DNA of 42,341 nucleotides from positions 1 to 42,341 of the forward strand of contig JAHFDG010000032.1 in assembly GCA_023249105.1 (NCBI GenBank). Reading direction: 5' to 3'. Numbering within the stretch: the stretch's first letter is position 1; every line of letters begins with the position of its first letter. The translations under genes were made by a program, and so were the position numbers. This document shows, piece by piece, positions 26,687 through 42,341 of this stretch. The notes below the pieces were generated by a model. That model did not search any database. It was not told the DNA's origin and was given only the letters and a program-made list of their open reading frames with translations. The DNA comes from Candidatus Methanoperedens sp. Its GTDB lineage: Archaea; Halobacteriota; Methanosarcinia; Methanosarcinales; Methanoperedenaceae.

Positions 26687-26715
26687 TATTTACATAAAAT
26701 AGGTTATTTTGTCAA
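26687..26715 (-). promoter_or_regulatory. Sigma70-type promoter for terS
   Basis: Minus strand: TTGACA (26715-26710), 17-base spacer, TAAATA (26692-26687). Predicted transcript start is near 26680, three bases from the terS ATG. Confidence 0.5.
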
Positions 26716-26884
26716 TATGTTATATATCCTTGTTCTTTTTTTATCTTTTTGCGGGGTTTGTTATTTATATTAAAATCCATACCATACCTATTAACATAAT
26801 TTGTCAATTTTGGACATTTTATGTCATAGAGAATATTGTTTAAAATCACTATGTTGCCGTGTTTTGTCGTTTTGTTGCTGTAAT

Positions 26885-26913
26885 TTGTCAGTGCTGGCAT
26901 GATTATATTATAG
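26885..26913 (+). promoter_or_regulatory. Candidate early rightward promoter
   Basis: Plus strand: TTGTCA (26885-26890), 17-base spacer, TTATAG (26908-26913) inside an A/T run with other possible -10 hexamers (TATTAT at 26906). It would give a leader of about 80 bases before the first small gene at 27000. Confidence 0.4.
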
Positions 26914-26999
26914 CATATCATTGATTTATAAGGGTTTTTTAGCTGGAATGAGAATTGCATTGTAAAGGATAAGATTTAAAAAAATAAAAGGGAGGGAAA

Positions 27000-27083
27000 A
27001 TGGAAACTGTAGCAATAGTAGTAACAGTAGCAGTAATGGCAGTGTGGATAGCAGCAGGGATAATAGTATCAGTAATAGATTAA
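27000..27083 (+). CDS. Tiny single-helix membrane protein (27 aa)
   Basis: 27 residues, nearly all hydrophobic (V, A, I) with one Trp and a terminal Asp. A strong GGGAGGG precedes the ATG. It is the first gene of the rightward unit. Short Val/Ala-rich peptides of this kind are hard to assign; the ribosome site and position support expression. Confidence 0.5.
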   Translation: METVAIVVTVAVMAVWIAAGIIVSVID

Positions 27084-27084
27084 C

Positions 27085-27116
27085 CGCATAAGACCTGACA
27101 CGCGCAAGCGTGCAGG
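27085..27116 (+). ncRNA. Type B RNA element, copy 1 (bulged hairpin with GCAA loop)
   Basis: CGCATAAG leader, then stem CCTG/CAGG, a bulged A, inner stem CACGC/GCGTG and loop GCAA (27104-27107). A GGGAGGG ribosome site follows within eight bases. Same design at 27337-27368 and 28034-28059; the third copy has a different inner stem and loop but keeps the bulge and GNRA loop. Confidence 0.6.
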
Positions 27117-27136
27117 CGGCAGGGAGGGAAAAGAAA

Positions 27137-27286
27137 ATGAAAAAGAGAAGCAAACTTGCCGAAATGCTGAAAGAAATCTGCAAACAGGTAGACGAGGAGC
27201 AGACAGAGCAGACAGAGGCGGAGGAAAAAAGGGAGGATGAAGCAATCTATGGCATATCCCGGCCCAAAAAAATAAAACACGTTTAA
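27137..27286 (+). CDS. Small charged protein (49 aa)
   Basis: 49 residues: basic N-terminus (MKKRSK), acidic Gln/Glu-rich middle (QVDEEQTEQTEAEEK), basic end (RPKKIKH). Helical, soluble and not recognised. GGGAGGG site before the ATG, directly after the type B hairpin. The stop codon lies inside the base of the type A hairpin that follows. Confidence 0.6.
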   Translation: MKKRSKLAEMLKEICKQVDEEQTEQTEAEEKREDEAIYGISRPKKIKHV

Positions 27287-27329
27287 GTCTTTCCTCTGCC
27301 CTTATTGAGGGTAGGGATAAGGACTTAAA
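27282..27329 (+). ncRNA. Type A RNA hairpin, copy 1
   Basis: A 48-base hairpin beginning at the stop codon: outer arms TTTAAGTC/GACTTAAA, continued by TTT/AAG pairing, a two-base bulge (AT) on the 3' side, CC/GG, a bulged T on the 5' side, then CTGCCCT/AGGGTAG and a five-base loop. No T run follows. Layout matches copy 2 at 27678-27724, where the inner stem is CTATCCC/GGGATAG, so the bases change and the pairs persist. Possible RNase III-type processing site. Confidence 0.6.
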
Positions 27330-27336
27330 GCGCATA

Positions 27337-27368
27337 CGCATAAGACCTGACACGCGCAAGCGTGCAGG
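27337..27368 (+). ncRNA. Type B RNA element, copy 2
   Basis: Nearly identical to copy 1: CGCATAAG, CCTG/CAGG stem, bulged A, CACGC/GCGTG, GCAA loop (27356-27359). It follows type A copy 1 after eight bases and precedes the GGGAGGG of the next gene. Confidence 0.6.
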
Positions 27369-27388
27369 CAGCAGGGAGGGATTAAGAG

Positions 27389-27676
27389 ATGACAACAGCA
27401 AATAAATGGACAAGGATATATGAGTCGCAGCCGTATCAAGCGGAGATATATGATAACTGCACGACAAGGGTATATCAACATGATGATAACCCGGCCAAAA
27501 TTAAACTCGAGGTTGACGGTACAAAATGGGTAGGTAACAGTGGAGGCTTCTACGTCCACAAATATTTTGTGGAGGGCGAGCAGGCTAATAAGCTCATCGC
27601 TAAAATCGCAGAACTTGACAATGACGAGGCATCTGAGACCGATGTGGATAATGTTATAGAGAGCATTGCTGAATAA
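27389..27676 (+). CDS. Phage protein of unknown function (95 aa)
   Basis: 95 residues, soluble, beta-rich first half (WTRIYESQPYQAEIYDNCTTRVYQHDD, LEVDGTKWVGNSGGFYV) and acidic helical C-terminus. GGGAGGG site before the start. It is framed by RNA elements on both sides: type A plus B upstream, type A copy 2 just after the stop. No family recognised. Confidence 0.65.
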   Translation: MTTANKWTRIYESQPYQAEIYDNCTTRVYQHDDNPAKIKLEVDGTKWVGNSGGFYVHKYFVEGEQANKLIAKIAELDNDEASETDVDNVIESIAE

Positions 27677-27677
27677 T

Positions 27678-27724
27678 TTAAGTCTTTCCTCTATCCCTTG
27701 CGGGGGATAGGGATAAGGATTTAA
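27678..27724 (+). ncRNA. Type A RNA hairpin, copy 2
   Basis: Starts one base after the stop of the preceding gene. Outer arms TTAAGTC/GATTTAA with a G-T pair, the same two-base 3' bulge and one-base 5' bulge as copy 1, inner stem CTATCCC/GGGATAG, six-base loop. Compared with copy 1, pair exchanges in the inner stem (for example C-G to T-A and G-T to A-T) keep the fold. Confidence 0.6.
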
Positions 27725-27727
27725 CAA

Positions 27728-27742
27728 CCCGGCCTTGCCGGG
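27728..27742 (+). promoter_or_regulatory. CCCGGC/GCCGGG hairpin
   Basis: Six perfect G+C pairs closing a CTT loop, in the place occupied by a type B element in other intervals. The GGAGGG ribosome site for the next gene starts about 13 bases further on. Confidence 0.5.
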
Positions 27743-27767
27743 ACAATGAAAAATGGAGGGTAAAAAA

Positions 27768-27920
27768 ATGACACAAAAAGGTGCATTAAAAAGAATCGAA
27801 AGGGCAATTACAGCCATGGTAGAGCTACAAGATGCAGGATACGGCACGGACAATATCATGAGGATTTTAGAAAAATTAAACCATGAAGAACAAGAAATAA
27901 CTTTGGAGGGAAAGCAATGA
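27768..27920 (+). CDS. Small helical protein (50 aa)
   Basis: 50 residues, two predicted helices (RIERAITAMVELQDAG, NIMRILEKLNHEEQEI). GGAGGG site at good distance. Its stop overlaps the next start (ATGA). Not recognised. Confidence 0.55.
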   Translation: MTQKGALKRIERAITAMVELQDAGYGTDNIMRILEKLNHEEQEITLEGKQ

Positions 27921-28021
27921 GAGACACAAAATTTGAAAACGGAAAGCAACAGGCAAAAAGACTTGAAAAAGAGAGCAAGCAACACAAATCTCAAAACAAA
28001 AAGAGAAAAGCTACTGAATAG
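27917..28021 (+). CDS. Tiny basic protein (34 aa)
   Basis: 34 residues with 12 Lys/Arg and five Gln; no hydrophobic core, so probably a nucleic-acid-binding or disordered peptide. TTGGAGGG precedes the start, which overlaps the upstream stop by four bases. Confidence 0.5.
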   Translation: MRDTKFENGKQQAKRLEKESKQHKSQNKKRKATE

Positions 28022-28033
28022 GATAAGATTAAG

Positions 28034-28059
28034 CGCATAAGTCCTGACTGTAAAGCAGG
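28034..28059 (+). ncRNA. Type B RNA element, copy 3 (diverged)
   Basis: CGCATAAG, stem CCTG/CAGG, bulged A, shortened inner stem CT/AG and loop GTAA (28050-28053). The stem is shorter and the loop sequence different, yet the bulge and GNRA form are kept. Just upstream GGATAAGATTAA resembles the 3' arm of a type A hairpin without its partner. Confidence 0.55.
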
Positions 28060-28078
28060 CGGCGCGGAGGAGAGGAAA

Positions 28079-28258
28079 ATGGAAATAAAAGTTGAGTTAG
28101 TAACAAAGAAAGATTCGCACGGGACGGTGTACCTCTCCCAGGGTGCAGCGGCCCGGTTGGCCGTCGCCCTGGGAATACCCGTCTTTTGTAATGATGGGTA
28201 TTTCCTCGGGATAATTTATCCCGACGGGCACGTATGGAAGGAGGAGGAAAAAGTATAG
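28079..28258 (+). CDS. Small phage protein (59 aa), partner of the next gene
   Basis: 59 residues, beta-like N-terminus, middle SQGAAARLAVALGIPVFC, end YFLGIIYPDGHVW. GGAGAGG site after type B copy 3. Its 3' end carries the GGAGGAGG that serves the overlapping next gene. Local G+C is clearly higher than in neighbours (about 28130-28430). Confidence 0.55.
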   Translation: MEIKVELVTKKDSHGTVYLSQGAAARLAVALGIPVFCNDGYFLGIIYPDGHVWKEEEKV

Positions 28259-28431
28259 CTGTAGAGGGTTTGCCTGAGCCTATCGACGGGGGGACACTAT
28301 ACATCGTGTCCGTGGTAGTTCTGACGGCACTCAAGGGCAGCCGCGTGGATGTTGTATGCCCTGACACGGGCAAAACCGCAGTTCGGGACGCAGAAGGCAA
28401 AATACAGGCCGTCAGGCAGTGGATAGTCTAA
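28234..28431 (+). CDS. Small conserved phage protein (GLPEP..TLYIVS type)
   Basis: 65 residues. The core VEGLPEPIDGGTLYIVSVVVLTAL...VVCPDTGKTAVRDAEGKI is a recurring phage pattern, usually the C-terminal half of a longer protein, here free-standing. The ATG at 28234 is upstream of the strong GGAGGAGG, so initiation at a non-ATG codon near 28252 is possible. It overlaps the preceding gene by 25 bases. Function unknown. Confidence 0.6.
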   Translation: MEGGGKSIAVEGLPEPIDGGTLYIVSVVVLTALKGSRVDVVCPDTGKTAVRDAEGKIQAVRQWIV

Positions 28432-28479
28432 CAACCCGCAGGCGGCCCTTTAGCGCGCCGGGGATAGAGAGGGTAAAGT

Positions 28480-28734
28480 ATGAAAGCAATTAGAACAAAG
28501 TACCTGCGGGGCACCAACACAAGGCCCGCAAAGATTAAGGCCGATGATTACGAAGGTAACAGTGTAATCGTATCTTGTGGACACTATACAAGCGTGGCTG
28601 ATAGCCATAAAGCAGCAGTGATTGCCCTGCTTAAAAAAATGAACTGGACAGGGAAAATGGTCGGAGGGGCAACGGACACGGGGTTTGTATACATTTTTAT
28701 TGATAAAAAATTAAAACTGGAAAGAAAGGGGTAA
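28480..28734 (+). CDS. Small conserved-looking phage protein (84 aa)
   Basis: 84 residues. Starts KAIRTKYLRGTNTRPAKIKA and ends VGGATDTGFVYIFID; reminiscent of small phage proteins found near recombination genes. Mixed alpha/beta, basic. GAGAGGG site. Preceded by a G+C-rich stretch (28432-28460) that can fold as a weak hairpin (CCC..GGCG..CGCC.GGG). Confidence 0.65.
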   Translation: MKAIRTKYLRGTNTRPAKIKADDYEGNSVIVSCGHYTSVADSHKAAVIALLKKMNWTGKMVGGATDTGFVYIFIDKKLKLERKG

Positions 28735-28738
28735 AGAA

Positions 28739-28894
28739 ATGAAATGTTATAGCTGTGAGACTAAGAAGGCAACAACAACACATGATATTAGCCATGTGCC
28801 CTTGTGCAGTACTTGCTACAATCAAGAGAAGACAGAAGCAATCGGAGACATGCAAGAAGCCCAAGAAGAAGGGAAAGAGGTAGAAAGCGCATGA
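28739..28894 (+). CDS. Small zinc-ribbon-like protein (51 aa)
   Basis: Cys3-x2-Cys6 and Cys23-x2-Cys26 form a likely zinc ribbon, followed by an acidic Gln/Glu-rich helix. AAAGGGG site. The TGA overlaps the next ATG. Confidence 0.55.
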   Translation: MKCYSCETKKATTTHDISHVPLCSTCYNQEKTEAIGDMQEAQEEGKEVESA

Positions 28895-28977
28895 TTATAG
28901 ACGCTCTTATATTATCGGCATCAGTGGTTGGCAGCGGCTATGCAGCATATCTAATTTGCTTGTATATGCTTGATTAA
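28891..28977 (+). CDS. Tiny membrane peptide (28 aa)
   Basis: 28 residues, one hydrophobic helix with GSGYAAY in the middle. No strong ribosome site of its own; expression would rely on ATGA coupling with the zinc-ribbon gene. Confidence 0.4.
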   Translation: MIIDALILSASVVGSGYAAYLICLYMLD

Positions 28978-29002
28978 TAACAATTTTAACGGAGGGCACA
29001 AG

Positions 29003-29140
29003 ATGATTAAAGACCTAATAAGAGAAACAGTATTGATGCAAGCGGGGTTTTTCCCCGAGGTTGAGCCTGAAATCTATACCGGCACGGAGGCCTGCTCTGG
29101 TATCTGCCAGGACTGCCATAAATGCGATATGGAGGAATAA
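29003..29140 (+). CDS. Small Cys-cluster protein (45 aa)
   Basis: 45 residues; the C-terminus has Cys-x3-Cys-x2-Cys-x2-Cys (ACSGICQDCHKCD), a dense metal-site candidate. GGAGGG site before the ATG. Not recognised. Confidence 0.5.
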   Translation: MIKDLIRETVLMQAGFFPEVEPEIYTGTEACSGICQDCHKCDMEE

Positions 29141-29143
29141 AAA

Positions 29144-29278
29144 ATGAAATACGGCAAAAAAAAGATAAGGATTGATAAAAGATACTCTGCACTTTTAACG
29201 TATCAGTGGTATAAAAAAGTTTATGGCATGAAAAAGGCTTATAGGCTTATATTGCTTGATAAATCTTTGTGTTGGTAA
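29144..29278 (+). CDS. Small basic protein (44 aa)
   Basis: 44 residues, very rich in Lys, Arg and Tyr, with a hydrophobic C-terminal helix. The GGAGG within the end of the preceding gene can serve as ribosome site. Weakly supported beyond packing. Confidence 0.4.
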   Translation: MKYGKKKIRIDKRYSALLTYQWYKKVYGMKKAYRLILLDKSLCW

Positions 29279-29291
29279 ACGGAGGGATGAA

Positions 29292-29483
29292 ATGACAATA
29301 TCACAGATAGCGGCAAAGGTTGAACACTGGGAGATAGCCTTGCAGCGCGCGCAGGATAGCCAAATTAAGCTAAATCGCCGGTTAGACGTGCTCACCATTA
29401 AGATTGACCGGCTGAAGGCTAAAATAGCCAAGAATAAGCCGTACAAGACCTATTATGAAAGGGAGGGGAAAAGCAATGCTTAA
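29292..29483 (+). CDS. Small coiled-coil protein (63 aa)
   Basis: Start chosen at 29292 because GGAGGG lies just before it; a longer frame begins at 29256. 63 residues with clear heptads (AAKVEHWEIALQRAQDSQIKL, VLTIKIDRLKAKIAK) and a basic tail. Its end overlaps the next gene by eight bases. Confidence 0.55.
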   Translation: MTISQIAAKVEHWEIALQRAQDSQIKLNRRLDVLTIKIDRLKAKIAKNKPYKTYYEREGKSNA

Positions 29484-30153
29484 ATACAAAATCACAGATG
29501 CAGACGGTTACACACGCAAGGGGCAAGTAGGAGCAAAAGATTGGGGGAATAACCTCGGTAAAACAATGGAAATTACAAAAACAGGGAATACCCTATGCAG
29601 TGATGAGGTATTCCACTTTTACGACCATCCCGCTTTAGCTGTAATTTTAAATCCAATACATGGAAATTATGATACCCAAACCATGCGGCTATGGGAGGTC
29701 GAGGCAGCGGAGATTGTAGCGCATGACGGTTGTAAGGGCGGCTGTAAAAAAATGACTTTTCTAAAGGAAATACCAATCCCCAAAATCACGATACAACAAA
29801 AAGTTGAATTTGCTATTAGGGTTTCTTTGTTGGTATATCATGAAAAATCTTATACGAGATGGGCTACGGATTGGCTATCGGGAAAAGACCGCAGTGCAGA
29901 CAGTGCCAGTGCCGCATACAGTGCCGCCGCCAGTGTAAACAGTGCCAGTGCCGCATACAGTGCCGCCGCCAGTGTAGACAGTACCAGAGCCGCATACAGT
30001 GCCGCCACCAGTGTAGACAGTACCAGAGCCGCATACAGAGCAGCCAGAGCCGCATACAGTGCAGACAGAGCCGCAGACAGTGCAGACAGAGTCAAAATCT
30101 CTCGTAAATTTATACAGATTATTGAAAAAATACAAAGAAAGGGGAAGAAATGA
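29476..30153 (+). CDS. Phage protein with Ala/Ser 13-residue repeats
   Basis: 225 residues from the ATG at 29476 with GGGAGGGG. The N-terminal domain (about 1-105) has GNTLCSDEVFHFYDHPALAVILNP...WEVEA and a Cys pair near residue 94, then a helix KVEFAIRVSLLVYHEKSYTRWATDWLSGKDRS. This domain-plus-repeat form is seen in many phages, function unknown. Residues about 143-200 are imperfect 13-residue repeats of the type SASAAYSAAASVD, expected to be helical. A short basic tail follows. Repeat number may vary between relatives. Confidence 0.7.
   Translation: MLKYKITDADGYTRKGQVGAKDWGNNLGKTMEITKTGNTLCSDEVFHFYDHPALAVILNPIHGNYDTQTMRLWEVEAAEIVAHDGCKGGCKKMTFLKEIPIPKITIQQKVEFAIRVSLLVYHEKSYTRWATDWLSGKDRSADSASAAYSAAASVNSASAAYSAAASVDSTRAAYSAATSVDSTRAAYRAARAAYSADRAADSADRVKISRKFIQIIEKIQRKGKK
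29902..30057 (+). repeat. 39-bp tandem repeats within coding sequence
   Basis: Units begin at 29902, 29941, 29980 and 30019. The first two differ at few positions; the third and fourth carry ACCAGA in place of GCCAGT. Shorter CAGACAGAGCCG pieces continue to about 30090. All changes keep the frame. Confidence 0.75.
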
Positions 30154-30963: not shown

Positions 30964-31113
30964 ATGAGCTTAGATATGGGACAAGCAATCACAAAAAACA
31001 CATTCAAAGTTGGGCATGGCAGTGGGTACACTCCTTCCGAGGGCTGTTCCATATCTACATTGCCGTGTCCATTCAATTTTATAAAAAATAAAAAAGGAGA
31101 TTATTATGTGTGA
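30964..31113 (+). CDS. Small protein (49 aa)
   Basis: Start at 30964 because AAGGAAGGAG precedes it; a longer frame from 30925 lacks a site. 49 residues, Gly/Ser-rich. A TTGACA sits at 30938, with TAAGAT 17 bases on; if used, transcription would begin inside this gene. End overlaps the next start. Confidence 0.45.
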   Translation: MSLDMGQAITKNTFKVGHGSGYTPSEGCSISTLPCPFNFIKNKKGDYYV

Positions 31114-31741
31114 ATTTTTATCGTGGATTGAATATAAAGAAGAGATTATATATATCACAGCAGCAGACCTCGAAACAAGTAAAGGTAAAAAATTGCTGAA
31201 AGATGTTGGTTGGGAGGATATAAAAGGGCATGGTGCTATCCGTAAGTTTTTTACCATCCCTGATGGTAAGGGCACAAACAAGGAATGTACGGATTTTTCT
31301 ACCCCTACAAACTTTCCAAAGGAAATTGTGAGAGATATTAAGAAAGGGCTCTTTATTGGTTTTGGCACACCAAGTGGGATATTGATAGACCCTATAGACA
31401 AAGCTTACAGGACACAGAAAAACACTCTCTACAAAGCTTACAGGGCACAGAAAGACACTCTCTACAAAGCTTACGAGGCACAGATAGACCCTATAGACAA
31501 AGCTTACAGGACACAGAAAAACACTCTCTACAAAGCTTACAGGGCACAGAAAGACACTCTCTACAAAGCTTACGAGGCACAGAAAGACACTCTCTACAAA
31601 GCTTACGAGGCACAGATAGACCCTATAGACAAAGCTTACAGGACACAGAAAAACACTATAGACAAAGCTTACAGGGCACTGATAGACACATACTGGAATT
31701 TAGTCAAAATCAAAAAAAATAGAGTTAAAGCATGGCAATAA
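31106..31741 (+). CDS. Phage protein with 11-residue helical repeats
   Basis: 211 residues. The first about 92 are a folded domain of unknown type (FLSWIEYKEEIIYITAADL, FTIPDGKGTNKECTDFSTP, FIGFGTPSG). Residues 94-192 are nine units of 11, consensus (K/I)DT(L/I)YKAY(R/E)AQ, ordered partly as repeats of three. An 11-residue period suits a right-handed coiled coil or long helix. A basic tail follows. AAAAGGAG site. Similar 'KAY' repeats occur in other phage proteins with no known function. Confidence 0.7.
   Translation: MCEFLSWIEYKEEIIYITAADLETSKGKKLLKDVGWEDIKGHGAIRKFFTIPDGKGTNKECTDFSTPTNFPKEIVRDIKKGLFIGFGTPSGILIDPIDKAYRTQKNTLYKAYRAQKDTLYKAYEAQIDPIDKAYRTQKNTLYKAYRAQKDTLYKAYEAQKDTLYKAYEAQIDPIDKAYRTQKNTIDKAYRALIDTYWNLVKIKKNRVKAWQ
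31385..31681 (+). repeat. 33-bp tandem repeats in a 99-bp higher-order pattern
   Basis: Nine 33-bp units, each with AAAGCTTAC. Order of unit types is a b c a b c c a b', so a 99-bp block was copied and one c unit added. Near-identity of the copies points to recent expansion or exchange. Confidence 0.8.
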
Positions 31742-42234: not shown

Positions 42235-42341
42235 AGATAGAGAATATTAGAAAGCAAACCGGACACCTTGTTATGTGGTTGTTACTGCTTCCCCTCAAGC
42301 TAATAATTCTTATAACCTTTTTAATTGTAATAATACCTTTC
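42231..42341 (+). CDS. Small membrane protein, 5' part (continues at base 1)
   Basis: GAAAGGGG precedes the ATG. The first 37 codons, MKIENIRKQTGH then a hydrophobic helix, run off the window and continue in frame from base 95, since bases 42248-42341 equal 1-94. The complete product is 72 residues, ending at 202. Described with the entry at 1-202. Confidence 0.7.
   Translation, partial: MKIENIRKQTGHLVMWLLLLPLKLIILITFLIVIIPF
42248..42341. repeat. Terminal direct repeat, right copy
   Basis: Exact copy of bases 1-94, showing the molecule closes on itself. The repeat falls inside a gene, which argues for an assembly overlap of a circular map rather than a natural end. Confidence 0.95.

Follow-up and report, generated by a model that had tools for sequence, protein, structure and literature searches.

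A small three-helix RNA element in front of the ribosome sites of genes in unrelated phages

The phage contig analyzed here raises the question of why a small hairpin with a bulged base occurs three times, each time shortly upstream of a small gene, and whether it acts as an RNA signal. The whole stretch of DNA, 42,341 nucleotides in length, is called the window in the following. A sequence-only reading had proposed an RNA element upstream of early genes, with copies at 27085, 27337 and 28034. In its description, a GNRA loop closes an inner stem, which is set off by a bulged A from an outer CCTG/CAGG stem, and a purine-rich ribosome site comes next. The analysis supported this overall reading, revised several parts of the structure and extended it to many other phages.

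The three copies and the phage that carries them

The contig represents a tailed phage, as seen from its terminase and portal families. Because the first and the last 94 bases (1-94 and 42248-42341) are identical, it is probably a complete circular phage map of about 42,247 bp. It was binned (as contig C115 of the MAG) with a genome carrying an archaeal 16S rRNA. Among the PHROGs families, those matched by its DnaC-like and DnaD-like proteins bear the names of bacterial-type helicase loaders, and its portal has matches in bacterial phages. Because the replication and portal proteins look like those of bacterial phages despite the archaeal bin, it can be inferred that the host is likely to be bacterial and that the contig was misbinned; alternatively, it may be an archaeal virus with bacterial-like genes. 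A search for related loci based on the terminase yielded no relative in IMG/VR. Near matches to the element in the host MAG were within genes and were rejected as chance, and the same was true for a match in a relative (L115).

All three copies were found in the sequence with the proposed stem, bulge, inner stem and loop, each followed by a ribosome site and an ATG (Table 1). Copies 1 and 2 read CCTG-A-CACGC-GCAA-GCGTG-CAGG and have GC/GC as outermost pairs, and copy 3 reads CCTG-A-CT-GTAA-AG-CAGG. The minimum-energy fold of copy 3 yields all three helices described below. A covariance model that was built only from loci outside the window (model R3) independently retrieved exactly these three copies from the 42 kb, and the next match had an E value of 1.6. 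The shared 8-mer CGCATAAG alone is weak evidence, since it occurs three times in the window and also reached three occurrences in 7 of 100 shuffles.

Table 1. Features of the three window copies and of the ribozyme/element junctions in other loci (window positions unless another locus is named)
Feature	Position	Strand	Remarks
Copy 1, element	27085..27120	+	R3 match 27081-27127, E 8.8e-6
Copy 1, P1	27086-27087/27119-27120	+	2 bp
Copy 1, P2	27094-27097/27113-27116	+	
Copy 1, P3	27099-27103/27108-27112	+	
Copy 1, unpaired	A27088; UAAG 27089-27092; N 27093; bulged A 27098; loop 27104-27107; C27117	+	loop GCAA
SD and ATG after copy 1	27122..27139	+	GGGAGGG; ATG at 27137
ORF behind copy 1	27137..27286	+	49 aa; no Pfam or PHROGs match
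Copy 2, element	27337..27372	+	anatomy of copy 1 shifted by +252; R3 match 27333-27379, E 1e-5
Copy 2, UAAG	27341-27344	+	
Copy 2, P2	27346-27349/27365-27368	+	
Copy 2, P3	27351-27355/27360-27364	+	
Copy 2, closing C	C27369	+	
SD and ATG after copy 2	27374..27391	+	GGGAGGG; ATG at 27389
ORF behind copy 2	27389..27676	+	95 aa
Copy 3, element	28033..28065	+	R3 match 28030-28070, E 6.3e-10
Copy 3, P1	28033-28036/28062-28065	+	GCGC/GCGC, 4 bp
Copy 3, P2	28043-28046/28056-28059	+	
Copy 3, P3	28048-28049/28054-28055	+	
Copy 3, unpaired	A28037; UAAG 28038-28041; bulged A 28047; loop 28050-28053; C28060	+	loop GUAA
SD and ATG after copy 3	28066..28081	+	GGAGGAG; ATG at 28079
ORF behind copy 3	28079..28258	+	59 aa
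Twister-P5/element junction	L019 2599-2694		
Twister-sister/element junction	L038 91-212		
Pistol/element junction	L052 1213-1321		

A second repeated hairpin (AAGTCTTTCCTCT...AGGGATAAGGA.TTAA) is present in two intergenic gaps of the window, 27285-27328 and 27680-27724. The first of these directly precedes copy 2 and is unusually stable (z -4.1 together with copy 2, -2.7 alone).

Consensus fold and occurrence

The alignment of 52 copies revealed an element of 33-45 nt. It consists of an outer helix P1 (3-4 bp), the unpaired R-UAAG-N, a helix P2 of 4 bp, a bulged A, a helix P3 of 2-5 bp with a variable loop, C-N, and the second strand of P1. P1 joins the bases 5' of R-UAAG to the bases 3' of the closing C-N. 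It had escaped the sequence-only reading, and the "CGC" prefix that was taken for a conserved word turned out to be merely one P1 strand sequence. Nearly any sequence is allowed in P1: its cells are paired in 79-81% of the cases, with 5-6 pair types per pair, and P1 had not been part of any broad search pattern. The window copies meet this definition, including the SD and the start that follow.

The covariation score of P1 and P2 was 0.383 for the 52 copies, compared to 0.099 for shuffled alignments (none of 500 reached the observed score) and at most 0.091 when the strands were slid; a separate direct test agreed. In a second set of 40 copies that left out the window, the respective values were 0.445, 0.108 and at most 0.095. 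The signal is strong for P1 and moderate for P2. Because P1 and P2 covary, the formation of P1, P2 and P3 in the RNA was demonstrated by comparative evidence, and probing data are not available. The proposed selection on RNA shape thus withstood the test, named in advance as a possible refutation, that stem positions might change without compensation.

P2 had appeared invariant because the first patterns fixed it. When P2 was left free, the sequences CCUG, CGCG, CCAG, CCUA and CCCG were found. All matches with four P2 pairs had an SD and a start at +16 to +22, whereas only one of the matches without four pairs did. The CCTG/CAGG stem is therefore not fixed and changes with compensation in other copies. 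Likewise, the idea of a conserved GNRA loop was rejected, because the loops of 3-5 nt are variable and only 22 of 52 belong to this class. The bulge is an A in 39 of 52 copies and AA, AC, AG or AAC in the others. The conservation of UAAG was partly imposed, because every scan pattern contained it; one copy (in L048) has CAAG instead.

The model search also removed the other possible refutation, namely that no further copies would be found. In pattern scans of IMG/VR and of genomes, the number of copies rose to about 66. The approximately 57 contigs that carry them are for the most part phages without relation to one another, and genomes of Bacillota and Patescibacteria are also among the carriers. 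The motif of the sequence-only reading alone retrieved 11 stretches from IMG/VR, several of which clearly represented the element, located ahead of start codons in phages not related to each other, and relaxed patterns retrieved 42. The scan of 84,980 species genomes gave four matches, three of them real. With the covariance model, copies were found in 3 of 398 genomes of the phylum Bacillota and 3 of 287 of the phylum Patescibacteria, but in none of 398 genomes of Pseudomonadota. In the family of Shouchella only 2 of 41 genomes had the element, consistent with prophages or other mobile DNA. When 81 loci (671 kb) were searched with the model, the true copies separated from the remainder, and record-wide searches revealed two or more copies in at least 9 of 41 virus records. 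Short BLAST queries, which are a weak test, did not find the element in records of cultivated phages. BLAST matches of single variants in cultivated phages and plasmids lay within genes or tRNAs and were rejected as chance.

The element is very probably a new, undescribed structured RNA family. As anticipated, it corresponds to no named element: Rfam 15 gave no gathering match in the window, none at the elements with E values up to 10 over 26700-30000, and none with E values up to 5 at the copies in L016, L019 and L035-L038. A description was also not found in the literature searched, which did not cover one paper on 224 motifs. Two candidate identities were dropped. Mimicry of rRNA was not supported, as model R2 revealed no similarity to the rrnB operon of E. 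coli (lowest E 0.83), and the reading of copy 3, with its CUGUAAA loop, as tRNA-Tyr-like was abandoned since the loops of other copies differ.

Position before start codons and behind ribozymes

The link to the ribosome site of the following gene, proposed for the window, was found to hold generally. An SD-like site and a start 13-25 nt past the last conserved C followed 63 of 66 model matches, compared to 3.1% of random positions in the same loci; starts were counted if they opened an ORF of at least 40 aa or an open one. The remaining three include two with a short ORF starting from an ATG at about +20 and one with an ATG at +34. The start lies on average 18.9 nt (median 19) and the SD core on average 8.3 nt from the element. 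The longer the distance from element to SD, the shorter tends to be that from SD to start (correlation -0.35), as though it were the distance to the start that counts. The element lies on the coding strand, locked to the start codon in 63 of 66 model matches.

Many copies lie in tight operon gaps, within tens of bases of the stop of another ORF, and thus the element is not confined to the 5' ends of mRNAs. The possibility that the UAA of UAAG serves as stop codon of the upstream gene was rejected, as this holds in only a few copies. In L010 (9641-9690) the start after the element opens an ORF of 15 codons (MATYQALSEVNDIHD), possibly a leader peptide.

The scan of 48 downstream proteins revealed no common family, and most are unknown. 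The named products mostly belong to DNA metabolism (SSB, RecE/YqaJ, RecT, RusA), and a radical SAM protein (DUF5131) and others were also found. The element is thus independent of the gene content downstream, and the lack of a shared family argues against a pathway-specific switch.

Three copies lie directly behind self-cleaving ribozymes, each of a different class: Twister-P5 (L019), Twister-sister (L038) and Pistol (L052). In the latter two, the last ribozyme strand overlaps the 5' strand of P1, from which it is inferred that the folds of ribozyme and element would be mutually exclusive until cleavage. Twister-P5 also occurs in the same niche without the element, directly before phage ribosome sites (L069 6167-6222, L019 2937-2999). 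A reverse search that started from Pistol ribozymes found no further pistols. This abutment to three self-cleaving classes is a lead on what phage ribozymes are for. In five further loci (L036, L039, L050, L076 and L058) the approximately 95 nt upstream of the element are strongly structured (z -3.4 to -6.2). These regions have no gathering-level Rfam match and are candidates for unknown ribozymes or terminators.

Role of the element and rival explanations

The tight spacing, the locked strand and the lack of a gene preference point to translation initiation. Very probably, the element is a signal that acts as the translation of a phage gene begins; this is supported by its position, while the partner and the direction of the effect are inferred. 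Of the functions guessed originally (translation, stability or a protein site), all remain plausible and the position favours translation. The best explanation, which we hold with moderate confidence, is a cis-acting RNA family before the ribosome-binding site of selected phage or prophage genes that is recognized by the host and favours initiation. The conserved core may form one recognition surface, made up of R-UAAG, the G-C/C-G pairs on both sides of the bulged N, and the bulged A, which lies four base pairs higher up; a single binding surface is suggested by the constant length of P2, which separates this A from the UAAG loop. Either the ribosome itself or a conserved RNA-binding protein of the host would make contact with this surface as the 30S subunit binds alongside, and initiation on the tagged genes would thereby be favoured. 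Binding and expression data do not exist for these steps. More tentatively, the element could be a translation tag shared by phages that are not related to each other and infect Bacillota, Patescibacteria and other hosts, and it could be read directly by the ribosome of the host or by a conserved protein associated with initiation. That contact with the ribosome is universal is not proven, since the 398 Pseudomonadota genomes lack the element and the short queries did not detect it in records of cultivated phages.

A positive role via the ribosome or a conserved host protein is favoured, but enhancer and repressor cannot be told apart from sequence alone, and a repressor operator is the main rival. 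Binding of a small ligand, or of an RNA-binding protein encoded by phage or host, to the fold might block or gate the access of the ribosome, as in thrS or the coat-protein operators. The compact conserved internal loop and bulge, the constant P2, the adjacent ribosome site and the several copies in some phage records would fit such an operator. Nevertheless, we regard it as rather doubtful: SD and start lie outside the fold without a conserved alternative pairing (judged by eye), the genes share no pathway, and a phage-encoded partner would be required across very different phages. The domain 2 of E. coli thrS and the MS2/PP7 operators are similarly bulged-A hairpins at or beside a ribosome-binding site, likely to be read by a macromolecule. 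The element, in contrast, has in addition a covarying outer helix and a UAAG internal loop, its SD and AUG are outside, its loop sequence is not fixed, and it precedes many unrelated genes in many phages. In the MS2/PP7 coat operator, two base pairs separate the bulged A from a four-base loop of defined sequence above it, and the start codon is part of the hairpin or adjoins it. These criteria are not met by a P3 of 2-5 bp, variable loops of 3-5 nt and a start codon about 19 nt downstream. Sequestration of the SD as in riboswitches or thermometers is also not fulfilled, as the SD core lies about 8 nt past the last conserved C and 3' of P1, with alternative pairings inspected by eye only.

Two further explanations involve ribozymes. 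The element could protect, or become, the 5' end of processed or new phage mRNAs, together with self-cleaving ribozymes or RNases. The three abutting ribozymes, two of them overlapping P1, and a copy that begins directly at a strong promoter (L083) are in line with this. It is unlikely, however, as a known ribozyme is present in only 3 of about 57 contigs, many copies are operon-internal right behind another ORF, promoters that end at P1 show no enrichment (2 found against 1.2 expected), and the tight spacing to the start codon remains unexplained. Stabilizing stem-loops of the ompA-leader type are also 5' UTR hairpins, but they are 5'-terminal, whereas the element is often operon-internal and at a fixed distance of about 19 nt from the start codon. 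That the element itself is a minimal self-cleaving ribozyme is very improbable. It shares the niche with the Twister-P5 ribozymes of L019 and L069, and its conserved nucleotides cluster in the internal loop and the bulge, but cleavage would be redundant for the three copies already behind a ribozyme, the core is very small, and the bulge tolerates A, AA, AC, AG and G. Twister-P5 (RF02684), Twister-sister (RF02681), Pistol (RF02679) and the RAGATH motifs occupy the same genomic niche, but the element is much smaller and matches none of their Rfam models. It can hardly be upheld that the element acts as DNA, e.g., as a hairpin of single-stranded DNA recognized by a transposase, or that it is a chance repeat. 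The combination of a short word and a bulged hairpin is superficially reminiscent of REP and IS200/IS605 ends, but in 63 of 66 model matches the strand is locked to the start codon, no transposase family is among the 48 downstream genes scanned, and chance is excluded by the covariation across unrelated contigs.

The preferred reading, a signal that favours initiation, has a counterpart in translation enhancer leaders of phages such as that of T7 gene 10, which is also a phage 5' UTR feature close to the Shine-Dalgarno sequence without a tie to a metabolic pathway. The T7 enhancer is thought to work via an unpaired sequence, in contrast to the three-helix fold with conserved non-helical nucleotides described here. 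To our knowledge, hardly any structured RNA signals are known that occur at start codons irrespective of the gene and are common to unrelated phages; most cis-acting RNAs are tied to one pathway. If the element is indeed a translation tag, phages could give chosen early genes priority irrespective of their product. Should it recruit ribosomes, phages would possess in it a portable expression signal, and it would help to understand how translation is taken over by phages of poorly studied hosts, including Patescibacteria. The element is small and defined, with obvious compensatory mutants, and is thus directly testable.

Two ORFs of the window contain in-frame tandem repeats, one of 33 nt (31344-31739 in the ORF 31106-31741) and one of 39 nt (29892-30092 in the ORF 29455-30153). 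Similar repeat-rich proteins are encoded behind the element in L047 and L070.
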